DNA of 64,000 nt from Chlamydiota bacterium (GCA_012729785.1 JAAYCL010000025.1:39178-103177), one strand, 5' to 3'. Counted from the first letter of the stretch, positions 12,537 to 49,167 are shown. Notes: generated from the sequence alone by a model not told the origin. Numbers and translations: made by a program.

Positions 12537-14468
12537 TCACGCCGGGTCCCCCGACGCCTCGAGTTCCTGGCCGAGCGATTCCCACTCCTGGAGAAGGCGC
12601 TGGTGCTCGCTCGCGAGAGCGCTGCGCTCCTCCGCGATCGGGGCGAGCTCCTCGTACGACGCGGCGATCGCGGGATCGGCCATCCGCAGATCCGCCTCCG
12701 CGAGGAGCGTCTCCTGCCGCTCGATCTTCTTTTCCACGGCGAGGATCCTTTTCTTCAGCGCACGGATGCGGCGCGCGCCTCGCGGGGGATCCCCTTTCGC
12801 CGCCGCGCCCTCCGCCGCGCCCCTCTCGACCGCGGCCGGTTCTTCCGCGCCGTTCTCCGCAATCAAACGCCGGGCGTGTTCCAGGTACTCGCTGTAGCTC
12901 CCGGGGTACGTCCGCAACGTCCCGCGGTCCAGCTCGACGATCCTGTTCGTCACGCGGTCCATGAACGCGCGGTCGTGCGACACGATCACGACTGTCCCGG
13001 TGTAGGCGGCCAGCGCCCTCTCGACGGTCGCGCGCGAGGTGATGTCGAGGTGGTTCGTCGGCTCGTCGAGCAGGAGGAGGTTGGCGGGGCTGAAGAGGAT
13101 CCTGGCGATGCGGAACCGCGTCCTCTCTCCGCCGGAGAGGACGCGCAGCGGCTTGGAGACGTCGTCGCCGCCGAACAGGAAGGCGCCGAGGAGATCGCGG
13201 GCGCGCTGCGCCTGGCCCGTCGGCGCGGCCTCGCCGATCGCGTCGAGGAGCGTCGTCTCGGAGGAGATCGTGTCGGTGTCGTACTGGGCGAAGTAGACCC
13301 TTTGGACCCGCCTCCCGACGACGCACTCCCCCTCGCGCGGCGTCTCCCTGCCCGCGAGGATGCGCAGCAGGGTGGTCTTCCCGGCCCCGTTCACGCCGAC
13401 GAGGCCGATCTTCTCCCCGCGCCTGATCTCGAGGTCGATCCCCTTGAAGACCTGATGCGTTCCGTAGGCGTGGCCGACGTTCCTCAGGACGAGCATCTCG
13501 CGGTGACTGTCCGGCGCGGGGGGAAAATCGAAACGGATCGCGGTCGGGTGGAACGGCGGCTCAAGGCGCGTGATCTTGGCGAGCCGCTTGACGCGGCTCT
13601 GGACGAGCGCCGCGCGGGCGGCGTTCGTTCGGAACCTCGAGATGAACGCCTCCATCGTCTCGATCTCGCGGCGCTGGCGTGTGTACGCCTCCCACCGCGC
13701 CTCGCGCCGCTCCCTGCTGCGGACGAGGTACTGCGCGTAGTTCCCCACGTAGACCTCCGCCCTGCCGTTTTCGAGGCAGACGATCCGGTCGGCGAGCCGG
13801 TCCATCGTGGCGGGCTCGTGCGAGACCACAACCACCGTCCTCCCGCACCGCTCGATCCACCCCTCGAGCCAGAGGGTGGACTCGAGATCGAGGTGGTTCG
13901 TGGGCTCGTCGAGGAGGATGACGTCGGGCCTGCGCAGGAGGAGCTTGGCGAGAAGGATGCGCATCCGCCACCCGCCGGAGAAGTCGCGGCAGGGGCGTTC
14001 GAGGTCCCCGGGGAGGAAGCCGAGCCCCGCGGCGACGCGCGCCGCCTTCGACTCGAGGGCGTAGCCGTCCGCGTGTTCGACCAGGTGGGCGCACTCGGCG
14101 TAGCGGCGCATCACCCGATCGTGCGCGGGGGAGTCGGGGGCCGTTTTCCCCATCTCCTCCGCGAGCGCCGCCATCTCCTTCAACGCCGCCTGCACCTCGG
14201 TGAACGCCGAGAGCAGCTCCTCCCGGAGCGTCCAGACGGGGTCGATCTCCGTCTCCTGGGGAAGGTAGCCGACCGTCGTCCCCTTCGGCATTCGGATCTC
14301 GCCCGCGTCAGGCCGCTCGAGGCCCGCGATCACCTTCAGCAGCGTGGACTTGCCGCAGCCGTTGGGGCCCACGACCGCGAGGCACTCCCCCTCCCTGACG
14401 GTGAGGTCGATCCCCCGCAGGATGGGCCGCCCGCCGAGCTCCAGATGGACGTGTTCGACGCAGATCAT
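12537..14468 (-). CDS. ABC-F family ATPase (Uup/YdiF/EttA-like)
   Basis: The 643-residue soluble protein has two ATP-binding cassettes and no membrane segments. The first cassette has Walker A GPNGCGKST and signature FSGGWRMR; the second has GVNGAGKTT and LSGGERTRFR; both have LLDEPTNHLD Walker B motifs. The basic inter-domain linker (about residues 240-310) and the Lys/Glu-rich C-terminal coiled coil (about 545-640) are typical of ABC-F proteins, which act on the ribosome in translation quality control or antibiotic protection rather than in transport. The ATG overlaps the stop of the glucan synthase gene (ATGA, 14465-14468), so the two are co-translated. The subfamily cannot be fixed by eye. 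Confidence 0.92.
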   Translation of the reverse strand: MICVEHVHLELGGRPILRGIDLTVREGECLAVVGPNGCGKSTLLKVIAGLERPDAGEIRMPKGTTVGYLPQETEIDPVWTLREELLSAFTEVQAALKEMAALAEEMGKTAPDSPAHDRVMRRYAECAHLVEHADGYALESKAARVAAGLGFLPGDLERPCRDFSGGWRMRILLAKLLLRRPDVILLDEPTNHLDLESTLWLEGWIERCGRTVVVVSHEPATMDRLADRIVCLENGRAEVYVGNYAQYLVRSRERREARWEAYTRQRREIETMEAFISRFRTNAARAALVQSRVKRLAKITRLEPPFHPTAIRFDFPPAPDSHREMLVLRNVGHAYGTHQVFKGIDLEIRRGEKIGLVGVNGAGKTTLLRILAGRETPREGECVVGRRVQRVYFAQYDTDTISSETTLLDAIGEAAPTGQAQRARDLLGAFLFGGDDVSKPLRVLSGGERTRFRIARILFSPANLLLLDEPTNHLDITSRATVERALAAYTGTVVIVSHDRAFMDRVTNRIVELDRGTLRTYPGSYSEYLEHARRLIAENGAEEPAAVERGAAEGAAAKGDPPRGARRIRALKKRILAVEKKIERQETLLAEADLRMADPAIAASYEELAPIAEERSALASEHQRLLQEWESLGQELEASGDPA

Positions 14469-37308: not shown

Positions 37309-38436
37309 TCATTTCACCATCACGACCCGCGCGGGCGGGATGCCGTTGAAGTTCGTCGCGCTCGCGACGCTGTAGGCGCCGGTGTGCTCCGCGTAGACGA
37401 TGTCGCCGAGCTCGAGCTCCGGGAGGTCCTCCCCGCGCGCGATGATGTCCAGGCTGTCGCACGTCGGCCCGGCGAGGGTCGAGAGCTGCCGCCTCCCCGC
37501 CTTGAAAACCTTGAACTGGTACTTCGCGTGGTCGAAGATCATCCCGCTGAGGGCCCCGTAGACGCCGTCGTCGAGGTAGTACCAGTGTTTGCTCTCCCGG
37601 ATCGCCTTCCCGACCACCCGCATCACGAGCACCGCCGAGGGCCCCGCGATGAACCGCCCCGGCTCGGCGATGATGCGCAGGTTGCGTTCGAAGAGCCGGT
37701 CTATCTCCCGGCGGATCACCCCGGCGGTCTTCTCGAACGTGTCCTCGTCGAAGTCGAAGTGCCGGATCGGGAAGCCGCCGCCGATGTCGAGCATCTCGAG
37801 CGGGAGCTGCTTCAGCTTCGCGTCGCGGAAGATGATGGAGGCCATCTCCAGGGCGTCCACGTAGTTGCCGAAGTGCGTGCACTGGCTCCCGACGTGGAAG
37901 CTCACCCCCGCGGGCTTCAAACCCAGCCGGTGCGCCTTGATGAGGAGCGGCACGGCGTCGGACGGGTCCGCGCCGAACTTGAGCGAGAGCTCCACGATCG
38001 AGCCGACGTTCGGGACCTTGATCCGGACGAGCACCCGGGCCCCCGGGGCGTGTTCGGCGATCTTGTCGAGCTCGTATTCGCTGTCGAAGGTGGTCAGCGT
38101 GACGCCCTTGCGGGCGGCGGCGGCGATCGAGCCGGCGGGCTTGATGGTGTTGGCGAAGATGATCCGTTCCGGACCCGCGCCCGCGGCGAGCACCGCGTCG
38201 AGCTCGGCCCTGGAGGCGACGTCGAACCCCGTGCCGGCCGCGGCGGCGATCTTCAGAATCTCGGGGTGCGGGTTCGCCTTGACCGCGTAGAACGGCTCGA
38301 CCCGCGGGAGCGCCCGGCGGAACCGGGCGATCTGCGCGCGGACCGCGGAGCGGCTCACCGTGAGGACCGGCGTGCCGTGCCGCTGCACGATCCCCTTGAT
38401 CTGCTTCTCGAACGCCCGCCCCCGCCCCTTGGCCAC
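37309..38436 (-). CDS. ornithine (lysine) decarboxylase-like PLP enzyme, alanine-racemase fold
   Basis: The 375-residue fold-type III PLP enzyme has Schiff-base Lys53 in [47 protein letters not shown] and [10 protein letters not shown] (phosphate and carboxylate contacts) follow, then [11 protein letters not shown] and GPTCDSLD, where the Cys and Asp are the substrate-binding pair of ornithine decarboxylases. It should make putrescine (possibly cadaverine) and, with the downstream deoxyhypusine-synthase homologue, feed a longer polyamine. The gene opens a two-gene operon. The defence-like operon lies upstream in the same direction, separated by 102 bp. Confidence 0.9.
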
Positions 38437-38538
38437 CGCCCGTCCCTCCCCTTACCTCGCTGCGCGACGCCGCGTATTCTACGACATCGCGGCGCGCGGT
38501 TCAACGTTTCCCGGCTCCTCCTCCGCATGTCCGGTGAT

Positions 38539-39165
38539 TCAATCGTTCTTCGGCGATGCGCTCCCCGCCCACGGCTTGGCTCCTAAGGACAGGAAATCCG
38601 CGTTAAGGGGCAAATCAAAAGTGTAAAGCGGCTTCCCCAATTTCATTATGCGACTACAAAATCTCATTATCTTCCCCCCCGGCTCTGCGTAGGGGATGAC
38701 TATCTTGTCGGCCAATGCAGCGACCATTTCATTTCGAATACGGGTCGTACTGGCATCGGCTCTTTTGACCCTATCCCCGCAGCACGACAGGATCAAGAGT
38801 CGGCCATCGGAAAGGGCTTTGGCATATTCCTTGCGCGGCCGTTGTGCAGGTACACGGAAAGCCGGGCACCAGATAATGGGCTGGCGCCCTTTCAGAAGAA
38901 TATCGAGGCATTCCTTCTCCATTGGAGAGTGGAAACCGCTGATGACGACTACCCCGGCATCGCGCACTTCCCGGATAAAATCATAAGTCTTGAGAATAAT
39001 ATCCCCAGGACATTTGATTGAACAAAACAAGGCGAGTGTTTTACGTTTCAGGATGCCGAAATCGCCAACTGCAAAGAGCATCTTCGGCGCATGGCTTCCT
39101 AGCTGTCGCGTTAGCGATGAGGGATATCCTGTATCCGAATCCCGGATCGACAGGATATCCATCAT
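38539..39165 (-). CDS. DprA/SMF-like Rossmann protein, last gene of the accessory operon
   Basis: The 208-residue protein resembles the Rossmann core of DprA/SMF proteins without the usual N-terminal SAM or C-terminal winged-helix domains. It has YPSSLTRQLGSHAPKMLFAV, LALFCSIKCPGDI, EVRDAGVVVISGFHSPMEKE, QPIIWCPAF and LLILSCCGDRV. The loop that in DprA reads R-x-P/S...SGLAxGID is changed to IKCPGD...SGFHSPME. Standalone DprA-like proteins recur next to restriction and helicase genes. The start at 39165 has AAGGGG 5-6 bp upstream; it follows the previous gene by 74 bp. It may bind DNA or a nucleotide; its function in the operon is unknown. Confidence 0.7.
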   Translation of the reverse strand: MMDILSIRDSDTGYPSSLTRQLGSHAPKMLFAVGDFGILKRKTLALFCSIKCPGDIILKTYDFIREVRDAGVVVISGFHSPMEKECLDILLKGRQPIIWCPAFRVPAQRPRKEYAKALSDGRLLILSCCGDRVKRADASTTRIRNEMVAALADKIVIPYAEPGGKIMRFCSRIMKLGKPLYTFDLPLNADFLSLGAKPWAGSASPKND

Positions 39166-39239
39166 AAGTACCCCTTGCAAACTCCTGGTGCTTATACAAC
39201 GGATTCATTGCCCGAATCCGACAGGTCGCCTTCCCATCC

Positions 39240-39860
39240 TCATGGAGAGATAAAAAACCATTCCTTTAACACGCGCTTGAGCTTGAGAAATGCATCGTCA
39301 GTACAACGATCGAAACTAACTCGGGTGGCAAGATCCGAGAAGATCTTTGACGTTTGGGATTTCCTCACTTCCCGAAGCGCAGCGAGCATCGCCTCTTTAG
39401 GGTGGGGTGGCTTTGTATCGCTTCTATCAATGATTCTCCGCCTGACTAGCCAATCTCTTAACGGTGGCATTCGATTGCTCCATCCAAGGATTGTATCCAC
39501 GTGTGGAGAATCGCTCCACACCCAACTCTCAAGTTCAGGGGCAATGACTATAGCTGCCGAACGTCCTCGCCACCCCGCCATGACCAGGCGGTTTTCCAGG
39601 TCTTCTTCCATCTCGATTCTGTCCATTCGATGGTCCTGGCCGGAGCCATGGTGATCGAAGACCACCAATGCGTACCTGGCTTGCATGATGGCGAATTGCA
39701 GAAATTCCGGGGCATTGCCATAACATCCATGATCATGTTCAGGATGGGTATGTATTTCCACCACAATAGGACTGATCCCCAAAGAATGATGCCGTGCGAG
39801 AATACCTCTCATGGTAAATTCCAGCTTCTTGTCTGGAACAAGAACCACTAGATCAATCAT
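39240..39860 (-). CDS. small partner of the AAA ATPase (possible TOPRIM-like or DUF4276-like nuclease)
   Basis: The 206-residue protein starts IDLVVLVPDKKLEFTMRGIL, with an acidic residue after strand 1 as in TOPRIM folds. ALVVFDHHGSGQD follows (Asp after a hydrophobic strand, where TOPRIM DxD would be), then EMEEDLENRL, VIAPELESWVWSD and a Lys/Arg-rich C-terminus. The ATG overlaps the ATPase stop (ATGA 39857-39860), so the two are translationally coupled and probably form a complex. ATPase plus small TOPRIM-like partner is a recurring anti-phage architecture (PARIS, OLD/Gabija-type and methylation-associated systems). Nuclease function is inference; the DxD is incomplete. Confidence 0.6.
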   Translation of the reverse strand: MIDLVVLVPDKKLEFTMRGILARHHSLGISPIVVEIHTHPEHDHGCYGNAPEFLQFAIMQARYALVVFDHHGSGQDHRMDRIEMEEDLENRLVMAGWRGRSAAIVIAPELESWVWSDSPHVDTILGWSNRMPPLRDWLVRRRIIDRSDTKPPHPKEAMLAALREVRKSQTSKIFSDLATRVSFDRCTDDAFLKLKRVLKEWFFISP

Positions 39861-41110
39861 CCGAGCACCCCTCCGGCAAAGAGCACGGAAAGATTCGGTG
39901 CTCCTTTCCAGTCTTTCAACTTCGGATGCCTGTCTCCGCGCACGATGTCGGTAGCTCCATCTTCTGTCTTGGCCAAACATAAGACTTGCGATACATCGAC
40001 ATCGCTCAATACCACCGGGGAATGGGTTGCCATGAGGACTTGCGCTTCATACACCGAGGACAACGATTGCACGACCGTCTCTACAGCGCGCGGATGAATG
40101 CCATTCTCCGGCTCTTCAACGATATAGCACCCGCGGAATTCCCTTAAATAGGCGGGGAGGGTTAGTGCAAGAAGTCTAAGCGTGCCGTCTGATGCCAACC
40201 ATGACGGGACCTCGAGCCCCCCGCGATATTGGAGCATCATATATCTATGCTTGTCATCCTTTCGCTCGATAGTGCGTATCCCGACCAGATCGGGCAATGC
40301 GGTCTGGAGATGCTCCACCCATTCCGTGAATCGCTCCGGATCATTTTCTTTAAGCCGCTCTATAACCCACGGGATATTCGACCCATCGGGTTTGAAGCCC
40401 GGAATCTGCTTCGGCGGACTCGCCTTGCGAATTTCCAGACTGTTGAGAATAAATTGCTGGATGCCTGATGCAAGGTAATCTTTGAACCATAGCGAGACAG
40501 GATATTCCTTCTCGTCGGGGGGGAGGTTCGCAAACGCCACACGCCGGGGTTTTGATGGATAGGAAGGTTTATATCCCTTGGGAGTCTCCGGATAGAAATT
40601 TTCGTTGCCTCCCTGCTCTTTGCTGACGACGACCGATTGCTGTTTCCTTGATAAGCCCTTTCGAGAAAGGATGCTTGCAGGCACATTCTGAAGATGAGGA
40701 AATAGCTCTCGTTGGGGCTCGATCCGGTTTCCTTTTATCTTTAGGAGAACGCGTTCCTTCATAATGCCGATGCCCTGGCCGTCCACATCCATGCCTACGG
40801 CGACTTCATATCGGATCCGGTCAAACGCGGGATTCTCCAATACCTTGCGGATTTTCTCCGGGATAAGCGCCTCAATCGCGAGCTCGAATGAATCCTCTTT
40901 TCTCCACCAGGTCAAATCCACCGGATTATTGACTCTTTGAGACACGGCGGCCTCAAGGCCATGCGACACTAAGTCGCCCAGGAAGGCTATAACATCCAAG
41001 AATGTCGTTTTCCCTGTGGCATTTGGGCCGACGAGAACCTGAAAAGGCGTGAGACTATGCCGGATATATTTCAGGCAACGATAGTTCAAAGCTTCAACGA
41101 GCGTAATCAT
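39857..41110 (-). CDS. AAA15/OLD-like P-loop ATPase of the accessory operon
   Basis: The 417-residue protein begins with a RecF/SMC-type strand (NYRCLKYIRHSLTPFQVLVG) and Walker A GPNATGKTT near residue 30. The C-terminal half has PSWLASDGTLRLLALTLPAY (signature-like), YIVEEPENGIHPRAVE (Walker B with catalytic Glu, near 335) and MATHSPVVLSDV (switch His). There is no fused TOPRIM domain. The start lies 3 bp after the methyltransferase stop, with AAGGAGG inside that gene's end, so translation is coupled upstream and, via ATGA, downstream. Such ATPases act as sensors or regulators of a nuclease partner in defence systems. The gene is visibly AT-richer than the chromosome around it. Confidence 0.85.
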   Translation of the reverse strand: MITLVEALNYRCLKYIRHSLTPFQVLVGPNATGKTTFLDVIAFLGDLVSHGLEAAVSQRVNNPVDLTWWRKEDSFELAIEALIPEKIRKVLENPAFDRIRYEVAVGMDVDGQGIGIMKERVLLKIKGNRIEPQRELFPHLQNVPASILSRKGLSRKQQSVVVSKEQGGNENFYPETPKGYKPSYPSKPRRVAFANLPPDEKEYPVSLWFKDYLASGIQQFILNSLEIRKASPPKQIPGFKPDGSNIPWVIERLKENDPERFTEWVEHLQTALPDLVGIRTIERKDDKHRYMMLQYRGGLEVPSWLASDGTLRLLALTLPAYLREFRGCYIVEEPENGIHPRAVETVVQSLSSVYEAQVLMATHSPVVLSDVDVSQVLCLAKTEDGATDIVRGDRHPKLKDWKGAPNLSVLFAGGVLG

Positions 41111-41113
41111 ATT

Positions 41114-44100
41114 CTATTCCTCCTTATAGTCCTGTCCCATGCGGTACTTGATATCGTAATTGATAATGAAATCGAGCTCTTCCTCTGTAATACCATAGTG
41201 CTTCGCCAAGACCTTGTCGATCTTGTCGATGATCGACTTGGAGTCAGACACATTGAATTCGGCGTAAATGATTGTATCGTTGTCCTTGGTTGTAATCTTC
41301 GTGCGCTTGGCGTGCTTTTCAAGGTCCCTGCTAAGAGCACTCGCGAGGCCTTGCAACTCGAGGTCATCAAAGGCTGCTGGGGGGACTGGAAAAGACCGTG
41401 CAAGTGTATCGCTAAGATGGAAGCAATCGCCATAGGCAATAAAATATGTGTAGAAGAGACTGCTATTAAGAATAGCGTGAATCACCTGTGCCATCGGTTT
41501 TGTTGAAAAGTATAGAAATCGGCCGTGGGCAGGCGGTGCGACCTTGCCATTTTTTGAGTAGTATGGCAGGCCTACCGTAGCTTTGACCCAGTATTGAGTC
41601 GCTTCCTGATAGAAAATAAAGTGCTCAGTTGGGGTTGTCGAAATAACTCTATCCAACGTCCTTTTGGGGCGTGAGAGAAATCGATGACTGATAGATGCAT
41701 GAATCTCTCCGGATAGTTTGGGGAAGACACCCTGCATGAGTTCCTCGTCAAAGCGCGTATATTGTACCGTTGGGAAAAGATAGCCACGTGCCTCCGTAGG
41801 CCATCGGTTGTATCTAGTCGTGTAGAGCATGTTGTAGTTGGGGCGATGTGGCTTGCTGGCAATAAAAATGCAATTCCGACAGTGCTGCAGTCCATCAAAG
41901 AGCTTGCCCGGTCTGTCGTCACACGGCATTAGTGTGAGGTGAGCGGAGTGGCGCATGAGATATTCGCGGAGTAACAGCATACGCGAGGACCCCACTATTG
42001 GCAGTTGTACTATAAAACTGAAGCTACCCCCCGGGGCCAGGAGTTCGAACGACCGTTCACTACATACCGCGTAGAGGTTTCCGCTCTTTTCCACTTTGTA
42101 GTTTCTGATGCCGTATTCGCCCTTGAGGGTTGAAATTTCCTTCCATGGCGGATTGCCGATGATGACATCGAAGCCGCCCTTCTTCAAGATCCCGTAGAAC
42201 TCGGCGAACCAGTGGAAGGGCTGGTGACTCCGGCGCCATTTCTCGAACGCATCCTTCTTGGCCATGTTCACGTCGTATTCCATGGCGAGGAAGCGGTCGA
42301 GTTCGTCGGTCAATTTCTTGAGGCGGGCGCGCAGTTCCTCCTTCGCAGTGGAAAAGTCCTTTGGCGACATGCCTCGCGCAGTCTGCATTTCATGGAATTT
42401 GTGGAAGGCCCTGTCGGCGATCTCCGCTTCTTCTTCGATCTTGCGCAGTCTGTCTTCCTTGTCGCCCAGGAGCAATAGACCCTGACGTCCCCCATGAGCA
42501 TTGCGCTTCAATTCATTCTCTGCGGCATCGCGGATTTCCGCGAGATTGGCGAACCCGACAAGCGTGTTGCCGGCGCGGATATTGAAATCGATATCGGGGA
42601 GCGGCTCCAGGTCCTCAACCTGCTCGATCTGCGCCACGAGTTTCAGAAACAGCCGCAATTTACAGATCTCGACCGCCTCCTCCATGATGTCCACGCCATA
42701 GAGATTATTCACAATGATGGATTTCAGGATGAAATAGCGGCAATTGGGATGCCCTTCCACCCTTTTGAGAATACCCGTGAACGACTTGTGATAATTCGGA
42801 TGGTTTTTTCTCCCCTTCTCGCCCCATTCTTCCAGGAAGAAACGCATCCTCTCCAAGCATGCCTCGTAGAGAGGATCGAGGATATTGAGCGCCGCAAAGA
42901 GGAATGCCCCCGATCCGCATGTCGGGTCGAGCACCGTCACGCTTTCGATCGCCCGCCGAAATGCCATCAGCAGTTCCGGCCCTTCGGCGTTTTCGATCAC
43001 GTCCTGGGCGAATTGGCGGATATCGAGGTTGAGGGTGATAAGCTCGTTGATGGAACGGATCCCGCCCGATGCCAGTTTTTCCCGTACCTCCTCACAACGC
43101 TTTCGCCTGGCAACGACCTCGCGCCATATCTCCGTGGGGAGGGCATACTCGGCGGGTGCTGGCCTGTTCCATCCCTTGCGGCGCTCAATGAGTCCCGGTT
43201 TCCTTGTGTCGAGTCCTTCCGCAATCTCCGGCGGCAGCGGCGATTGGAGACCGTGGCAAACCGTCGGATAGATATACCGGTCCGGATCTTCGCGTAGCAG
43301 CCGCCATACGGAACGTTCCCCCTCGAATGCCACCGTGCATTTTTCGCGCGCGGTATCGAAGAGGGAGGGGATCACCGTATTCTTGCTGATGTACTCGGTG
43401 ATATCCTCCTTTGTATAGTACGCGCCCATCTGTTTCTGGTTGATGTATTTCTCGAAGATGTATCCGAGGACATCGGGATTGATTTCATCGTCTTTCTTGA
43501 GCGGGCGCTCGTCGAGATGCCACTGGTAGGCATCAAAGAATTCATAGAGCTGCTCAAACGCCCTGTCGGGGATCGCGATGGTTTTGCCGTGCAGTTTCTC
43601 GATCTGATGGGGCAAGAAAATCCCCCCGTTCAGATACGGGACCTCCCCGAGCAATGAGGCGGCTTTGCCCGCGCGCTCCTCTCCCTTCTTGGCGAACCCC
43701 TCGAAAAAGAGCGGACACAGGAATTCCCGATAGTAGCGATCCCTCCCCATCTCCTTTCTGCATTGGGCAAGCTTGTTCTTCAGGTAATCCCGATCGCCGT
43801 TCAGGAATCCCTTCTTCTGGATGAAATATACGAACATCAGACGGTTGAGCATGACGGAGACATACCATCGCTCAAGTCCTTTGTCTGGAATACCGTCAAG
43901 GAATTTGAGGAACGCCCCATGCTCATCCTTGAAGCGGTCGTAGAACCGCTTGGTGACGCGCTCGATATCGAACGCCGTCTTCGCTCTTCCCGTCACATCG
44001 GGGAGCGTCAGGGTTTCTTCCTCTTCAAGACTCACTACCAGTGCATGGAGCTTCTGAATAAGGGATTCTCCCGGTTGACCGGGATGGTAGGGATGCTCTC

Positions 44101-44443
44101 TGCACACTGCGGGCATACCGTGCTCGCGTCGGACCCATTGCCAGATTTGCGATCGAGGCGTGCCGCCGGTGAAGATTATGAGGTGCTCATGAGCGACTTT
44201 CGTGACCTGTCGCTCGATTTTGCGACGGGTGGGATAGTCCGGGAGCCGCCCGTTGGATTCCGGTCCGCACACGAAAGCCGCCATGCCGCATTTCTCGGCG
44301 ACAGCGGAGAGAGGATATGTGTTTCCATCCACCGTGATGTCGAGCGTGGCCTTGTGATGATTCCATCCAAGCCCTTCGATGAAAAGAGGCGTGAAGTCGA
44401 ATGAGGCGAGGTGCTTGCGGGCTTCAGCGAGATTCAAAGGCAT
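41114..44443 (-). CDS. large class I DNA adenine methyltransferase (Eco57I/PglX-like)
   Basis: The 1109-residue protein has an N-terminal helical region with VMLNRLMFVYFIQKKGFLNG and YIFEKYINQKQMGAYYTKED (the landmark before the methylase core). Motif I is LDPTCGSGAFLFAALNILDP near residue 510, and motif IV is IIGNPPWKEIS near 760, giving N6-adenine specificity. A C-terminal target-recognition-like region follows. The layout matches type IIG/BREX-like single-chain methylases, but no PD-(D/E)xK nuclease motif is apparent. The gene starts 15 bp after the helicase stop. It probably marks self DNA while the helicase/PLD and ATPase proteins act on unmodified DNA. Confidence 0.88.
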   Translation of the reverse strand: MPLNLAEARKHLASFDFTPLFIEGLGWNHHKATLDITVDGNTYPLSAVAEKCGMAAFVCGPESNGRLPDYPTRRKIERQVTKVAHEHLIIFTGGTPRSQIWQWVRREHGMPAVCREHPYHPGQPGESLIQKLHALVVSLEEEETLTLPDVTGRAKTAFDIERVTKRFYDRFKDEHGAFLKFLDGIPDKGLERWYVSVMLNRLMFVYFIQKKGFLNGDRDYLKNKLAQCRKEMGRDRYYREFLCPLFFEGFAKKGEERAGKAASLLGEVPYLNGGIFLPHQIEKLHGKTIAIPDRAFEQLYEFFDAYQWHLDERPLKKDDEINPDVLGYIFEKYINQKQMGAYYTKEDITEYISKNTVIPSLFDTAREKCTVAFEGERSVWRLLREDPDRYIYPTVCHGLQSPLPPEIAEGLDTRKPGLIERRKGWNRPAPAEYALPTEIWREVVARRKRCEEVREKLASGGIRSINELITLNLDIRQFAQDVIENAEGPELLMAFRRAIESVTVLDPTCGSGAFLFAALNILDPLYEACLERMRFFLEEWGEKGRKNHPNYHKSFTGILKRVEGHPNCRYFILKSIIVNNLYGVDIMEEAVEICKLRLFLKLVAQIEQVEDLEPLPDIDFNIRAGNTLVGFANLAEIRDAAENELKRNAHGGRQGLLLLGDKEDRLRKIEEEAEIADRAFHKFHEMQTARGMSPKDFSTAKEELRARLKKLTDELDRFLAMEYDVNMAKKDAFEKWRRSHQPFHWFAEFYGILKKGGFDVIIGNPPWKEISTLKGEYGIRNYKVEKSGNLYAVCSERSFELLAPGGSFSFIVQLPIVGSSRMLLLREYLMRHSAHLTLMPCDDRPGKLFDGLQHCRNCIFIASKPHRPNYNMLYTTRYNRWPTEARGYLFPTVQYTRFDEELMQGVFPKLSGEIHASISHRFLSRPKRTLDRVISTTPTEHFIFYQEATQYWVKATVGLPYYSKNGKVAPPAHGRFLYFSTKPMAQVIHAILNSSLFYTYFIAYGDCFHLSDTLARSFPVPPAAFDDLELQGLASALSRDLEKHAKRTKITTKDNDTIIYAEFNVSDSKSIIDKIDKVLAKHYGITEEELDFIINYDIKYRMGQDYKEE

Positions 44444-44458
44444 CGTTCACACGACTCC

Positions 44459-47400
44459 CTATTTCTCGACCTTAAGATCGGACAATCCCATGGAACAGAT
44501 GATGCGTGGTTCCCGGGCGGTTTCCGCATCATCGGTCTTGACCGTGAGCGCATCGGCGTCACGGAGGGACATCACCTTTTGCGCCAGATCCTGATCGGAT
44601 ACGTGCGTCCGCAACAGGCGATTCAGAACATCCTTGGCGGCATCGCGCAACGGATACCGGTATATCTCCTCAATGGCCCGGTGCAACTCCTGCCGATCAA
44701 ACAGAGTATCCTTCACTTCTTCCGCGTATCGCTTGAGCCGCTCATATGTTCTGAACCGCGCGCCCGAGGGGCGGCCGAGCTGACCCCCGCCTGTCTTCTC
44801 TTCCTTAACGATCTGCTCGACCCCTGACCGGACGAGGGTATGATGTGCCTCAAGGCGCGGAACCGCCGGCGTGGCCGGGGCGCACCTGGCGGCATCCAGA
44901 ATCAATTTCTGCGATTCTGTAACGCTTCGACCGGAGGAATCAATCCAGGCGAGCGCATCGTTGTCCCCAGCGGTCCGCAGATAGACCAGAACTCCGGCAG
45001 GGGCCTCGGACGAGGATTTGTGCGCGCGGGTGGAATACACTACCGGTGGCAGATCGGCGACGGTTTTCTCCAATGCGGGATCGGCGCCGACCGCGTTCTT
45101 CCATATCTGATAGGCGTAGGATGCCATATCCACTTCCCCATCGGCGTCGCCGTCGAGGATACCCGCTTTTTCGGTAAAAAGATCGCGCACGGCCTTATCA
45201 TTGCGGTCATCCTCGAAGAACGCCTCGTCCGTCCCGACCACTTCAGCGTTCTCCCGCAGGCGCTGCCGTACACGGGCGCGAAGACGAATTATGCGCTCCA
45301 CGCCATCGGCGGGGAGAAACGAGTAGCTCACTATAGTTTCCGCATGTTGCCCGATGCGGTCCACACGGCCGATCCGCTGCACAAGGCGGATAATCGCCCA
45401 CGGGAGATCGTAATTGACCACAATGGCGCAGTCCTGGAGATTCTGTCCCTCGCTCAACACATCCGTGGCGATGAGCACCCGAAGTTCGTCTTTCGGGGGA
45501 ACCTTGTCCCGCTTTTCGTTGCTTTCCGGGCTGAACCTCCAGGCAAGATGCGTTGGGTCCGATGAATTTCCCGTTACAGCCGCCAGGCGATCGACTCCCA
45601 TCGCTTTGAGTTGCTTTTCGAGATAGAGCACCGTGTCGGCGAATTGGGAAAATACGATTATCTTGTCCTTGGGATGTTGTGTACGGATCAGTGCACGCAA
45701 CGCTGATAGCTTCGTATCAAGGCGGGGATTCCACTCGCCGCACATGTCCAGCACTCCGATGAGCGCTTCGGCGTCGGTACGCAGGTACTTTGGGAGTATC
45801 TTGTCGAAAAGGTCCGCGCGAAGCCAGTCGAACCGTTTTTTCCCATGAGTGGCATACCCGCGGTAAACCTCTGCTGCCCGCTTTCTGAAGCCCTCGATTG
45901 TCCGCAGGTCAGTTGTGTCCTCGGCGGCGCATGCCGTCCCTTCTTCTCCCTGGAAGATATCCCCGACAAAATCGGTGTCTTCGTCGCATATCCGAGCATC
46001 CAATAGACCGCTATCCTGTGTTCCGATGGGGAGAGGTTTCCCCGCTTCTATGGCATGGAGATAGACAAAGTTCCGAAGGATGTGTCGTTCCACCGACTGG
46101 AGAAACGCCTGTCCGCTGGATTCAAGTCGCTTGAACAGATTTGTCCGGCAGAATCCCATCAATCGCTTGCCTGCACGGGAGAGATTTTGAAGCGCCTTTG
46201 CCTCATCTCTGGTCGGCGGTGTATCGGGAGCCGGGGCGATGAAGTTGCCCAATCCATAGCGGGGCAGATGGAGTGAGCCGATTGTAGTAACGACATCCGA
46301 GGAGTAGAGACGCGCATACTGATCTTTCTTGCTGCGCTCATCGATGGAAAATTTCAACGTCTTGGGGATACGCGTGGGGAAGTAGTACGGGACCCCCTCC
46401 TTAAGCGGGAGGAACTTGCGCCCGTTCGCGGGATCAGTTTCCGCATAATTATCCATGATGAAGCTGCGCGTCCGCCGGACAAGATAGAGGCGCATGAGTT
46501 CGCGCCAGTCGTCGGCATATTCGCTCTTCTCAAAGGCCGCCAATGTTCGCGGGGCGCATTGATGGCGGCGAATGAATTCCGTCTCCCCTAGATCTTTCAG
46601 CAGCCTCTCCGGACGGATGGGGAGCGTCTGATCGTCGGGGAGGAATAACCGGAGCTGGTTTGAGAGGTCAAGATAGGTTTTATTGTAGGGTGTCGCGGAA
46701 AGCAGAATGCACTTGCTGTCGTTCTTCTTGATGTAATCACGAATGGCGCTGTAGGTCTTCCCCTCGCGGTTGCGGAGATTATGGCTTTCGTCGATCACCA
46801 CGAGACGATATCGGCGCATGTCGGGCAATTCACGGATAGCGCGGCTTAGAGAAAGCACTTTCCCGCGAAGATGGTATCGTTCCCTGTAATCTGTCCACAT
46901 GGGGAGCAGATTTTTCGGGCAGATCACCAGAGTCTCAAGATCGTAATCGTCCTCGAAAACACGCGCGAGCGCCGTCGCCATCATGGTCTTGCCGAGGCCG
47001 ACCACGTCGCCGATCAATACCCCGCCGCGCTTATTGACGTGATGTGCGGCGATTTTGACCGCTGCTTCCTGAAAGGCGAACAGCCTGTCCTTCAGCTCGT
47101 CCGGCAGGTGGAATTCGGATATGCCCTCGCGGGCCTCGCGGGATAGATGGTAGGCCATCTTGATGTAGATATGATATGGGGGGATCGCATCCTCGCGCGC
47201 CCAGCTCTCCTCGATGACGCTCACAAGATCGGAGGAGATATCGATGCACCAATGGTCACTCCATCTATCCTCGAACCATTGCGCCAGTTTTCGGCATGCA
47301 TCGTGATCGAGGACGTCGATGTTCAACTCTCCCTGATGCGCAAGGCCGGCGAGGGTCAGATTACTGCTGCCAAGGTAACCGACGGTTGGATTTATGGGAT

Positions 47401-47845
47401 CCGGTCTGAACAGCAGATACAGTTTTGCGTGGAGCGGATGGCGCAGAAACAGCCTGACGACGACCTTCTTCGCTTTAATCTGTGCGGCCAGTCTGCGAAG
47501 TCCCGCTTCGTCATCATTAGTGGGTACGCCGATCGTCAGTTGCTCCTTGAATTTCTGGACTATCTCCTTCTTGAGGCGAACGGCGATTTTCTGATCGATA
47601 TCCTCGTCTGACTTGCCCATACCGAGAAGGGTATAGACTTCTTCATGGGGTATGCGCTGCATCCCGACAAGCAGACGGCAGCAACGCCCCTCTCCGCCCG
47701 CCCAACGCTCAATGTGAGAATCCAGGGCCTTCCACCCGCGGAGATTGAAATATCCCACGCAAAAATCCGCGCGGTCGGAGACTGCAATCGTTTCACGGAG
47801 AGCGGAAAGGAGATCGTCGGAGATGTTGTCGAAGATGCGGGGCAT
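44459..47845 (-). CDS. PLD-domain SNF2-type helicase/nuclease, first gene of the accessory operon
   Basis: The 1128-residue protein joins an N-terminal phospholipase-D-like domain (HPLHAKLYLLFRPD with downstream GYLGSSNLTLAG, an HxK..GSxN motif near residues 138-160) to an SF2/SNF2 helicase. Helicase motifs are motif I GDVVGLGKTMMATAL near 280, DESHNLRN (DEAH-like) near 350, motif III LLSATPYN, and the C-terminal lobe with FSQFADTVLYLEKQL, ATDVLSEGQNLQDC near 800 and QRIGRVDRIGQ. The PLD active site could cut DNA as a dimer. A strong GGAGG lies 6 bp before the ATG at 47845. A single promoter with tandem repeats precedes it, and four genes follow in the same direction. Confidence 0.9.
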   Translation of the reverse strand: MPRIFDNISDDLLSALRETIAVSDRADFCVGYFNLRGWKALDSHIERWAGGEGRCCRLLVGMQRIPHEEVYTLLGMGKSDEDIDQKIAVRLKKEIVQKFKEQLTIGVPTNDDEAGLRRLAAQIKAKKVVVRLFLRHPLHAKLYLLFRPDPINPTVGYLGSSNLTLAGLAHQGELNIDVLDHDACRKLAQWFEDRWSDHWCIDISSDLVSVIEESWAREDAIPPYHIYIKMAYHLSREAREGISEFHLPDELKDRLFAFQEAAVKIAAHHVNKRGGVLIGDVVGLGKTMMATALARVFEDDYDLETLVICPKNLLPMWTDYRERYHLRGKVLSLSRAIRELPDMRRYRLVVIDESHNLRNREGKTYSAIRDYIKKNDSKCILLSATPYNKTYLDLSNQLRLFLPDDQTLPIRPERLLKDLGETEFIRRHQCAPRTLAAFEKSEYADDWRELMRLYLVRRTRSFIMDNYAETDPANGRKFLPLKEGVPYYFPTRIPKTLKFSIDERSKKDQYARLYSSDVVTTIGSLHLPRYGLGNFIAPAPDTPPTRDEAKALQNLSRAGKRLMGFCRTNLFKRLESSGQAFLQSVERHILRNFVYLHAIEAGKPLPIGTQDSGLLDARICDEDTDFVGDIFQGEEGTACAAEDTTDLRTIEGFRKRAAEVYRGYATHGKKRFDWLRADLFDKILPKYLRTDAEALIGVLDMCGEWNPRLDTKLSALRALIRTQHPKDKIIVFSQFADTVLYLEKQLKAMGVDRLAAVTGNSSDPTHLAWRFSPESNEKRDKVPPKDELRVLIATDVLSEGQNLQDCAIVVNYDLPWAIIRLVQRIGRVDRIGQHAETIVSYSFLPADGVERIIRLRARVRQRLRENAEVVGTDEAFFEDDRNDKAVRDLFTEKAGILDGDADGEVDMASYAYQIWKNAVGADPALEKTVADLPPVVYSTRAHKSSSEAPAGVLVYLRTAGDNDALAWIDSSGRSVTESQKLILDAARCAPATPAVPRLEAHHTLVRSGVEQIVKEEKTGGGQLGRPSGARFRTYERLKRYAEEVKDTLFDRQELHRAIEEIYRYPLRDAAKDVLNRLLRTHVSDQDLAQKVMSLRDADALTVKTDDAETAREPRIICSMGLSDLKVEK

Positions 47846-47866
47846 TGAGCGCCTCCAGAGGGGCTA

Positions 47867-47928
47867 ATGATACGACAATCTCGATGAGATCACAATGTTG
47901 AGCCGATATCCATGTTGAGCCGATATCC
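47867..47928 (-). promoter_or_regulatory. promoter and tandem-repeat operator of the accessory operon
   Basis: The minus strand reads -35 TTGTGA (47895-47890), a 17-bp spacer and -10 TATCAT (47872-47867), about 20 bp before the helicase ATG. Immediately upstream of the -35 lie two perfect head-to-tail copies of a 17-mer (plus-strand ATGTTGAGCCGATATCC, 47895-47911 and 47912-47928). The spacer contains the palindrome ATCTC-ATC-GAGAT. The arrangement suits an activator site plus a repressor site; no regulator gene is next to it. Confidence 0.6.
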
Positions 47929-48355
47929 CTGCCGTAGTAAAGCAAACATGAATTTACATAGTTGGGCTATTTGCAGGAGTGATTGTGTTTGATGGGCGAT
48001 ATCAAGATGGGAAGGAGTCACGCCTCCGACGTGGAGGCAAGCTCGACGGCGGTCCGGATCCTTGCGGCGACGTGGGGGATAACGCCGGCCCGGAAACACC
48101 CTCTCCGCTCAGTCCCCCTTGCCCTCGCTCCTATTACGCTACCCCTCGCACGAAGACGCCCTTTTGAATCTAGAGCGTCCGGCGCAGGCTGGCCGCAAAC
48201 CGCCCGCTCGCACGGAAAAGCCCTACTGCTGCACCACGGCCTTGCAGCTGTCGTTGAACGCCCCAACTCATTCGATGCGCCTTGCCCGATTCGGTTCCCT
48301 TCCCCGGATCATGGAGTGAGAAAGAGGCGCACGGAACAACAATGCACATAGCACA
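47929..48355. other. gene-free stretch upstream of the accessory operon
   Basis: This region of over 400 bp separates the accessory operon promoter from the terminator of the H1-like gene. The part nearest the operon is AT-rich. No frame shows a good start with recognisable protein, and no repeat array or RNA gene was seen. Confidence 0.45.
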
Positions 48356-48357
48356 TA

Positions 48358-48390
48358 AAGAAGCGGCGCGCCCTTTCGGGCGCGCCGCTT
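48358..48390 (-). terminator. rho-independent terminator of the H1-like gene
   Basis: A perfect 13-bp stem (AAGCGGCGCGCCC/GGGCGCGCCGCTT, loop TTTC) lies 29 bp after the stop at 48419 and is followed on the minus strand by CTTTATG. Confidence 0.8.
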
Positions 48391-48418: not shown

Positions 48419-48937
48419 TCAGGCCTTCTTCACCTTGTCCGCCAGCTTGATGAGCCGGCAGATGCGGATGACCTCGAGCCTGCCTCCCACCCCCACGGCC
48501 GCGCTGTCGGCGCGGAACTCCTGGACGATGCCGACGCGCTCCTTGCCGCCGTCCGTCCTCCATCCGACCAGATTGCCGATCTTGATATCGGTCGGGACCG
48601 ACGGACGCCTGCTGGGCTTCGCCGGGGTCATCTGGGAGTACTTCAACCAGATCGGCTCGGCCTGTGCCGCGTCGCCGACCACAAGGATCGAGGGCGCGCC
48701 TTCTTCGCCGAATCTCCTCAGGACGACCTTCTTGGCGGCCTTACGGCCCCTGCGGCCGGCCTTCTTCTGCTTTTTCGCGGCCTTGGGGGCCGCCTTCCCC
48801 GCCTTCTTGCCGGGCTTCGCTGCGGCAGCCGCGGCCTGTTTCTTAACCTTCCTGCCGCTCCTGGCGGCCTTTTTCGCGGTCTTTTTCGCCTTTTTGGGCG
48901 TCTCCTCGGCCTGCGAGGAGATGAGTTCATCGATCAT
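48419..48937 (-). CDS. histone H1-like Lys/Ala-rich protein fused to a C-terminal beta-rich domain
   Basis: The 172-residue protein has an N-terminal tail (about residues 12-75) of KAKKTAKK, RKVKKQAAAAAAKPGKKAGK and AAPKAAKKQKKAGRRGRKAA repeats, like bacterial H1/HC1-type nucleoid proteins and expected to bind nucleic acid. The C-terminal 100 residues (PSILVVGDAAQAEPIWLKYS; IGNLVGWRTDGGKERVGIVQ; GGRLEVIRICRLIKL) look like a small beta-barrel (SH3/KOW-like). The ATG at 48937 has AGGAGG exactly 6 bp upstream, so the open extension further upstream is rejected. It is monocistronic with its own strong terminator, as for an abundant protein. The domain pairing is unfamiliar to me. Confidence 0.75.
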   Translation of the reverse strand: MIDELISSQAEETPKKAKKTAKKAARSGRKVKKQAAAAAAKPGKKAGKAAPKAAKKQKKAGRRGRKAAKKVVLRRFGEEGAPSILVVGDAAQAEPIWLKYSQMTPAKPSRRPSVPTDIKIGNLVGWRTDGGKERVGIVQEFRADSAAVGVGGRLEVIRICRLIKLADKVKKA

Positions 48938-49167
48938 CTGCGTCCTCCTTCCTTCTTTTCGTTCTTTCGAACCCCCGCGGACGCACCGCGGAACCTCCTG
49001 ACCGGCTGCGGAACCCGCCGTCCGCACCACAGTCACTTCACGGCTTCATGGTATCAGGAAACGGACGTCTGTCAAGGAAAATTGAGCGTCCACAGGGGGG
49101 CTGGGGCGCCCCCGCCCGGCGCGCAATGCGGCGCCGTTCAGGCCCGTTCCCGTGGTATATTTGCGCA

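Follow-up and report, generated by a model that had tools for sequence, protein, structure and literature searches.

Organization of the operon

Positions 38,539-47,928 of a 64,000-nucleotide stretch of a Chlamydiota bacterium genome (GCA_012729785.1, JAAYCL010000025.1:39178-103177; this whole stretch is hereafter called the window) contain five co-directional genes, which encode a helicase with an N-terminal HKD nuclease domain, an N6-adenine DNA methyltransferase, an OLD-type ATPase, a small partner of the MAD4 family, and a divergent DprA-like protein (Table 1). From gene 1 to gene 5, the spacings are 15 bp, 3 bp, a 4-bp ATGA overlap, and 74 bp. The GC content is 54.1% at 38500-47950, compared with 69% on either side. 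An original prediction from the sequence had described five open reading frames in one direction with these gaps and this overlap, a composition AT-richer than that of both sides, and the domain assignments of the five proteins, and all of this is borne out. However, its view of the five genes as one conserved system had to be abandoned because the third and fourth genes vary. What is conserved is the helicase plus the methyltransferase, in most cases accompanied by the DprA-like gene; the ATPase-partner pair is one of many alternative inserts.

In one family member, the homologues of the two genes that flank the operon (48419-49036 and 37309-38436) are separated by 398 bp; in three other members, they enclose a major facilitator superfamily gene. 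Since relatives have nothing or another gene between the same flanking genes, the operon is an insertion. Attachment-site repeats were sought at the borders of the island and none of note was found, and none of the ten flanking open reading frames matched a PADLOC model.

Table 1. Features of the operon in the window, and loci of a second subtype.
Feature	Coordinates	Strand	Description
Gene 1 (core)	44459-47845	minus	N-terminal HKD/PLD nuclease domain and SNF2 helicase, 1128 residues
Gene 2 (core)	41114-44443	minus	Eco57I/PglX-class N6-adenine DNA methyltransferase with its own target-recognition domain, 1109 residues
Target-recognition domain of gene 2	41294-41848	minus	Variable, residues ~866-1050
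Gene 3 (inserted module)	39857-41110	minus	OLD-type (AAA_15/AAA_21) ABC ATPase, MAD3 family, 417 residues
Gene 4 (inserted module)	39240-39860	minus	MAD4 family, predicted OLD C-terminal Toprim-like fold, 206 residues
Gene 5 (core-linked)	38539-39165	minus	Divergent DprA-like (SMF Rossmann) protein, 208 residues counted from ATG
Promoter-like site	47867-47895	minus	TTGTGA-17-TATCAT, ~21 bp upstream of the gene 1 start codon
Perfect 17-bp tandem repeat	47895-47928		GGATATCGGCTCAACAT x2; adjoins the -35 hexamer and may be an operator
Intrinsic terminator of the preceding gene	48361-48390	minus	Strong hairpin, 13-pair stem, 11 GC; sets the preceding gene apart from the operon
Second-subtype loci	L135 7503-9301, L142 7752-9514, L144 10103-11925 (minus strand)		With an OLD-type ATPase and a DUF4276-like partner, no DprA

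A helicase-methyltransferase core

The product of gene 1 matches the Pfam families PLDc_2, SNF2-rel_dom, and Helicase_C. Among 70 homologues, the PLD site (H139-x-K141, G159-S-x-N162, and E173) as well as the Walker A motif GxGKT (283-287) and the DESH motif (352-355) are kept in nearly all, and 445 of the 1128 columns are at least 90% conserved. Gene 2 matches Eco57I of Pfam (2.6e-24) and, over its full length, the PADLOC model REase_MTase_IIG (PDLC03628, 1060 bits); the NPP(Y/W/F) motif is present in 82 of 82 homologues, being NPPW in this protein. Its fold resembles those of M.BseCI and CamA (Z 17) and is also similar to DrdV, MmeI, and LlaGI, the AlphaFold model being of moderate quality (pTM 0.49) and supporting no claim on the fold of the N-terminal domain. 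In this last domain there is no conserved (D/E)xK motif, A49-x-K51 standing at that place, and for this reason it is probably the HKD domain of gene 1 that does the cutting in this system.

When 84,980 genomes were scanned with gene 2, 414 relatives were obtained, of which the best 80 loci, bearing about 15 phylum names, were kept. A homologue of gene 1 lies directly upstream of the methyltransferase in 71 of the 75 loci whose upstream sequence extends over 1.5 kb or more; this recurrence, together with the whole five-gene order in a further locus (L069, see below), exceeds what chance would give. Moreover, in an independent sample seeded with the helicase, this family occurs in 18 of 384 genomes (~5% of a broad bacterial sample), with a methyltransferase behind the helicase in 11 of the 11 loci long enough to show it. 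Core homologues are also found on plasmids, and helicase-methylase pairs stand alone on Rhodococcus plasmids. Judged from these sequence comparisons, genes 1 and 2 are a reusable core spread across many bacterial phyla (~15).

Pairwise distances in 39 loci are correlated between helicase and methylase (r 0.67), helicase and DprA-like protein (r 0.55), and methylase and DprA-like protein (r 0.67), with p 0.001 in every case. The distances of the target-recognition domain, on the other hand, do not track those of the helicase (r 0.06, p 0.21), and this region has a mean identity of 27% to its homologues, whereas the methylase core reaches 65-68%. Because the distances within the core co-vary while those of the target-recognition domain do not, the data fit a scenario in which the core would be inherited together and its sequence specificity exchanged.

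The DprA-like protein

Gene 5 matches DNA_processg_A of Pfam with 33.5 bits (cut-off 29.6) and the PADLOC PsyrA model with 51 bits, and a separate housekeeping DprA is encoded elsewhere in the genome (257 bits). The motifs G-x-HSP-x-E, CPAR, and RN are conserved among 51 homologues, F103 replacing the arginine of CPAR in the protein studied here. A DprA-like gene is located downstream of the methyltransferase in 37 of the 46 loci with at least 6 kb of sequence; in the helicase-seeded sample, it is present in 4 of the 7 loci of the same methyltransferase type that have this length. A plasmid search with the DprA-like protein gave no match. We assign this gene to the core layer and not to the cargo. 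DprA-like proteins are partners in toxin-antitoxin defense pairs such as ShosTA and PsyrTA; here, an antitoxin of the cargo is a disfavored role, the DprA-like gene being also present where no cargo is found.

A variable slot between the methyltransferase and the DprA-like gene

The slot between these two genes is empty (at most 112 bp) in 12 loci and filled (0.4-8.2 kb) in 41. Slot genes, as defined by a simple open reading frame rule, run co-directionally with the operon in 84 cases and are opposed in 9, whereas the corresponding numbers for flanking genes are 241 and 180 (p 2e-10). The inserts fall into 74 sequence clusters, 8 of which occur in at least two loci. Among their domains are Schlafen AlbA_2 (12 of 84), OLD-type ATPases (AAA_15, 7), PIN (4), YhcG nuclease (3), and Macro (2), as well as DUF5131, DarT, HepT, GmrSD, and DUF3644; these counts are not independent, several Poribacteria loci sharing related Schlafen inserts. 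Among the 84 genes just outside the operons, no insert-type domain is present in the top 25 families listed, none of which has more than 3 members, a comparison in which single members may be hidden. The slot is a site for exchangeable, putative second-line effectors, many of which carry toxin or defense domains.

Multiple inserts are seen in the Poribacteria loci L062, L022, L038, and L032, for example, Schlafen-AlbA, TPR-Schlafen, and an OLD-type ATPase with a 180-residue partner. Also, a three-gene insert (257, ~135, and 211 residues) is common to the Chloroflexi-group loci L034 (13366-15211) and L067. It is a candidate new effector module, the two of its proteins that were scanned giving no Pfam match.

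The MAD3-MAD4 module

In the window, the slot is occupied by genes 3 and 4, which score above the cut-offs of the NCBIfam models antiphage_MADS3 (505 bits, cut-off 420) and antiphage_MADS4 (205 bits, cut-off 160), a membership that the original prediction had missed. The Walker A (GPNATGKT), Walker B (EEPENG), and H-loop (ATHSP) motifs of gene 3 are conserved. For MAD4, a confident AlphaFold model (pLDDT 91) best matches the C-terminal Toprim region of OLD nucleases, with Z 9.2-10.0 over 177-179 residues. A MAD4 profile gave no match against PDB sequences, only the fold comparison being informative, and the similarity found by Foldseek alone is weak (best E 0.0095). Residues D43, D69, E109, E111, and K150 are invariant among nine homologues. 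According to the model, MAD3 and MAD4 look like an OLD nuclease split over two genes, with a presumed nuclease activity.

The exact five-gene order occurs once more, in the Nitrospirae locus L069 (MAD3, 515 bits; MAD4, 226 bits), whose methyltransferase is seemingly frameshifted near its end (open reading frame stop at 13105, similarity continuing to 13303). In other genomes, the pair has different neighbors. In L108 (4741-16048), it sits between a DrmD/RapA-like helicase and DUF1156-DUF499 genes, and therefore the module would also serve BREX-related cores. In L105, from the same phylum as the window, it adjoins a DUF499 gene, and in L104, L106, L107, L109, and L110, it is away from either core. 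A tree places the pair of the window with those of L069 and the DUF499-linked L105 (99/98), and that of L108 with the pair of L107, beside which no such core lies. As these groupings cross core types, MAD3-MAD4 has switched its context at least twice.

In Anabaena cylindrica pANACY.05, L142, and L144, a related arrangement is seen: an OLD-type ATPase and a DUF4276-like partner are located behind a different methyltransferase, and there is no DprA. L135, L142, and L144 represent a second subtype, in which the OLD-type ATPase and the DUF4276-like partner accompany an HKD-SNF2 helicase and an Alw26-like methyltransferase, again with no DprA (Table 1).

Comparison with known systems

The closest published frame is provided by the DUF499-centered BREX-related (BR) Type-2 systems, in which backup nucleases are embedded and which have been reported under the name Hma too (PMC12839542, PMC8565338). 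In both, a Swi2/Snf2 helicase carries an HKD nuclease at its N-terminus, an N6-adenine methyltransferase is present (here with an Eco57I domain and NPPW), and backup effectors, which in the present operon are putative, are supplied by OLD-ABC plus nuclease modules inside the core or next to it. The two would also work in a similar way. However, the core described here has a DprA-like gene instead of DUF499, and identity with Hma/BR Type-2 was rejected on this ground: DUF499 (PF04465) has no match in the whole genome, and two DUF499 queries found none in the related core loci. In addition, DUF3780 has no Pfam match among the five operon proteins, and gene 1 scores 134 bits against NF042964, far under the cut-off of 1100.

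The operon resembles MADS (methylation-associated defense system) in that its third and fourth genes pass the equivalog cut-offs of MAD3 and MAD4 and a methyltransferase is nearby. Nevertheless, this methyltransferase is not MAD2 (16 bits, cut-off 720) and no other MAD model matches any of the five proteins, so that MADS identity was also rejected, two of its families only being present. With PARIS and OLD/Gabija, the operon shares an OLD-type ABC ATPase and, as predicted from the MAD4 model, a Toprim-type nuclease partner; in contrast to PARIS, the partner scores as MAD4 and not as AriB, and the module lies inside a modification-restriction operon. The AriA model gives 98.7 bits with gene 3, for which the HEC-01A and MAD3 models score higher, and no AriB model match is found in the operon proteins, although the MAD4 model resembles the OLD Toprim.

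A SNF2 helicase with a PglX-like adenine methyltransferase is likewise a trait of BREX (PglX) and DISARM (DrmD, DrmMI). Still, the set is unlike the gene content of DISARM, BREX, or PARIS, as had been foreseen: no PglZ, BrxC, DrmA, DrmB, or DrmC-type gene is found among the five genes or the ten flanking open reading frames, and DISARM models give only partial helicase and methylase domain matches (DrmD, 124.5 bits, cut-off 610). Finally, type IIG/ISP/III systems (DrdV, LlaGI) have a methyltransferase with a built-in recognition domain and a similar fold, and an ATP-driven helicase-nuclease, but here the helicase is on a separate chain, as would be the nuclease, which is of the HKD type, and there are an extra DprA-like gene and a slot. 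The operon as a whole matches no named system, and no PADLOC or NCBIfam system covers it entirely. In the literature, which was covered in part, no description of a helicase-methyltransferase-DprA core was found, and searches for this gene combination returned general conflict-system papers only.

Promoter region and repeats

The promoter-like site ahead of gene 1 is sigma-70-like, with a match to the consensus of only 9 of 12 positions, such sites being no more numerous in the region than expected by chance. The adjoining 17-bp tandem repeat has no other copy in the genome when up to 2 mismatches are allowed and is not conserved in homologues, a search for a conserved operator indicating that it is private to this locus. 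No regulator gene is present in the operon. An inverted repeat at 39117-39165 (16-nt arms, 94%) spans the start of the DprA-like gene, and its GGATATC core is also present in the promoter tandem repeat.

A relative in Synechocystis 6803

Plasmid pSYSX of Synechocystis 6803 (L090, 7870-15687) carries a homologous helicase-VapC-methyltransferase set. The helicase and the methyltransferase are 51% and 47% identical to those of the window and follow the same order, but a VapC-type gene stands between them and no DprA-like gene was found nearby. By counting genes, the pSYSX methyltransferase would be slr6050, to which Hagemann et al. in 2018 reportedly assigned the motif GA(m6A)GGC. In Synechocystis 6803 DNA, this motif is methylated at 99.6% (PMC7296061).

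A probable two-layered defense unit and its alternatives

We consider it rather likely that the operon is a laterally acquired, restriction-modification-like phage-defense unit with two layers, the core and a plug-in module. A mechanism can be proposed from the anatomy, the conservation, the co-variation, the variable slot, and the intact active-site residues described above. In the first layer, the gene 2 methyltransferase would place its mark on adenines within a short target of the host DNA, whereas on unmarked DNA the SNF2 part of gene 1 would move using ATP and the HKD nuclease domain would cut. The DprA-like protein would most likely sense a nucleotide or single-stranded DNA produced by the attack and gate the response. 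In the second layer, the MAD3-MAD4 plug-in would be an OLD-type ATPase with its Toprim-like nuclease half encoded separately. It would most likely be kept inactive as long as the first layer holds and, once that layer is blocked or overrun, would cut nucleic acid and stop the cell. Such a fallback role is proposed because of the OLD, PARIS, and BREX-embedded relatives of the pair: PARIS is a sensor of the restriction inhibitor Ocr, and BREX and BREX-related loci have embedded OLD-ABC/nuclease modules (PMC12839542). In other genomes, the slot holds other suicide or defense modules. The original prediction had guessed at a fused system with the ATPase-partner pair as a second effector, and this is strengthened by the MAD3-MAD4 pairs that adjoin other cores and by the predicted OLD-type Toprim fold of the partner.

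Several points weigh against this interpretation. Host relatedness could account for part of the co-variation. Some cores, including those on Rhodococcus and cyanobacterial plasmids, are devoid of the DprA-like gene, which is thus not strictly required. Many inserts carry no recognized domain. The canonical motif 1 Toprim glutamate is not invariant among the nine MAD4 homologues, and therefore the nuclease activity of MAD4 is uncertain. Moreover, judging from the pairs of L135, L142, and L144, which lie behind a different methyltransferase with no DprA, one subtype might have such a pair as a standing partner and not as free cargo.

An alternative, to which we give little credit, is a single machine with all five proteins in one complex, where MAD3 would be a restriction sensor or motor and not a separate fallback. 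In line with this, genes are spaced by 3 bp and 4 bp, L069 has an identical order, and OLD-ATPase and Toprim-like pairs lie behind the methyltransferase in L135, L142, and L144. However, most loci with the same helicase and methyltransferase carry other genes or nothing in place of the pair, MAD3-MAD4 also accompanies DUF499 genes or occurs away from both cores, and the nearest helicase relative (L012, 78%) has no MAD3 or MAD4 in the 620 bp behind its methyltransferase, where the contig ends.

It is improbable, too, that we are dealing with an ordinary type IIG/ISP-like restriction-modification system accompanied by unrelated passengers, the slot and the DprA-like gene being by-products of defense-island crowding. 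Although PADLOC calls gene 2 type IIG over its full length and lone helicase-methylase pairs exist on Rhodococcus plasmids, the inserts are inside the operon and strongly co-directional, unlike the flanks, and their domains are not listed among those of the flanking genes (top 25 families). The distances of the DprA-like protein track the core, and no conserved (D/E)xK is seen in the N-terminal domain of gene 2 (A49-x-K51).

Lastly, DprA families bind single-stranded DNA in transformation and core homologues occur on plasmids, but an epigenetic or plasmid/transformation-control operon, its DprA-like protein binding incoming single-stranded DNA, is very hard to reconcile with inserts that match the abortive-infection and toxin repertoire and with MAD3 and MAD4 families annotated as defense.

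Implications

Under the reading of a two-layered phage-defense unit, the modular slot is the most interesting part of the system. As a tentative extension, which we hold to be possible but short of probable, the operon would exemplify an unnamed, phylum-spanning chassis composed of an HKD-SNF2 helicase, an adenine methyltransferase with a freely exchanged target domain, a DprA-like gatekeeper, and a fixed slot that takes almost any abortive-infection module, the DprA-like protein or the core acting as a universal trigger for unrelated effectors. Annotation tools would label such a locus as a type IIG methylase plus loose parts, even though about 5% of the sampled genomes carry the helicase family. 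A fixed slot predicts that unrelated toxins would be silent in the intact operon and fire once the core is inhibited. The pSYSX core, in a model cyanobacterium, is an experimentally tractable relative. Moreover, loci with an empty slot or varied inserts next to the same core constitute a natural series for learning how numerous effectors can be connected to a single restriction-like core, and the slot itself would be a source for cataloging new abortive-infection genes that have no known domain.

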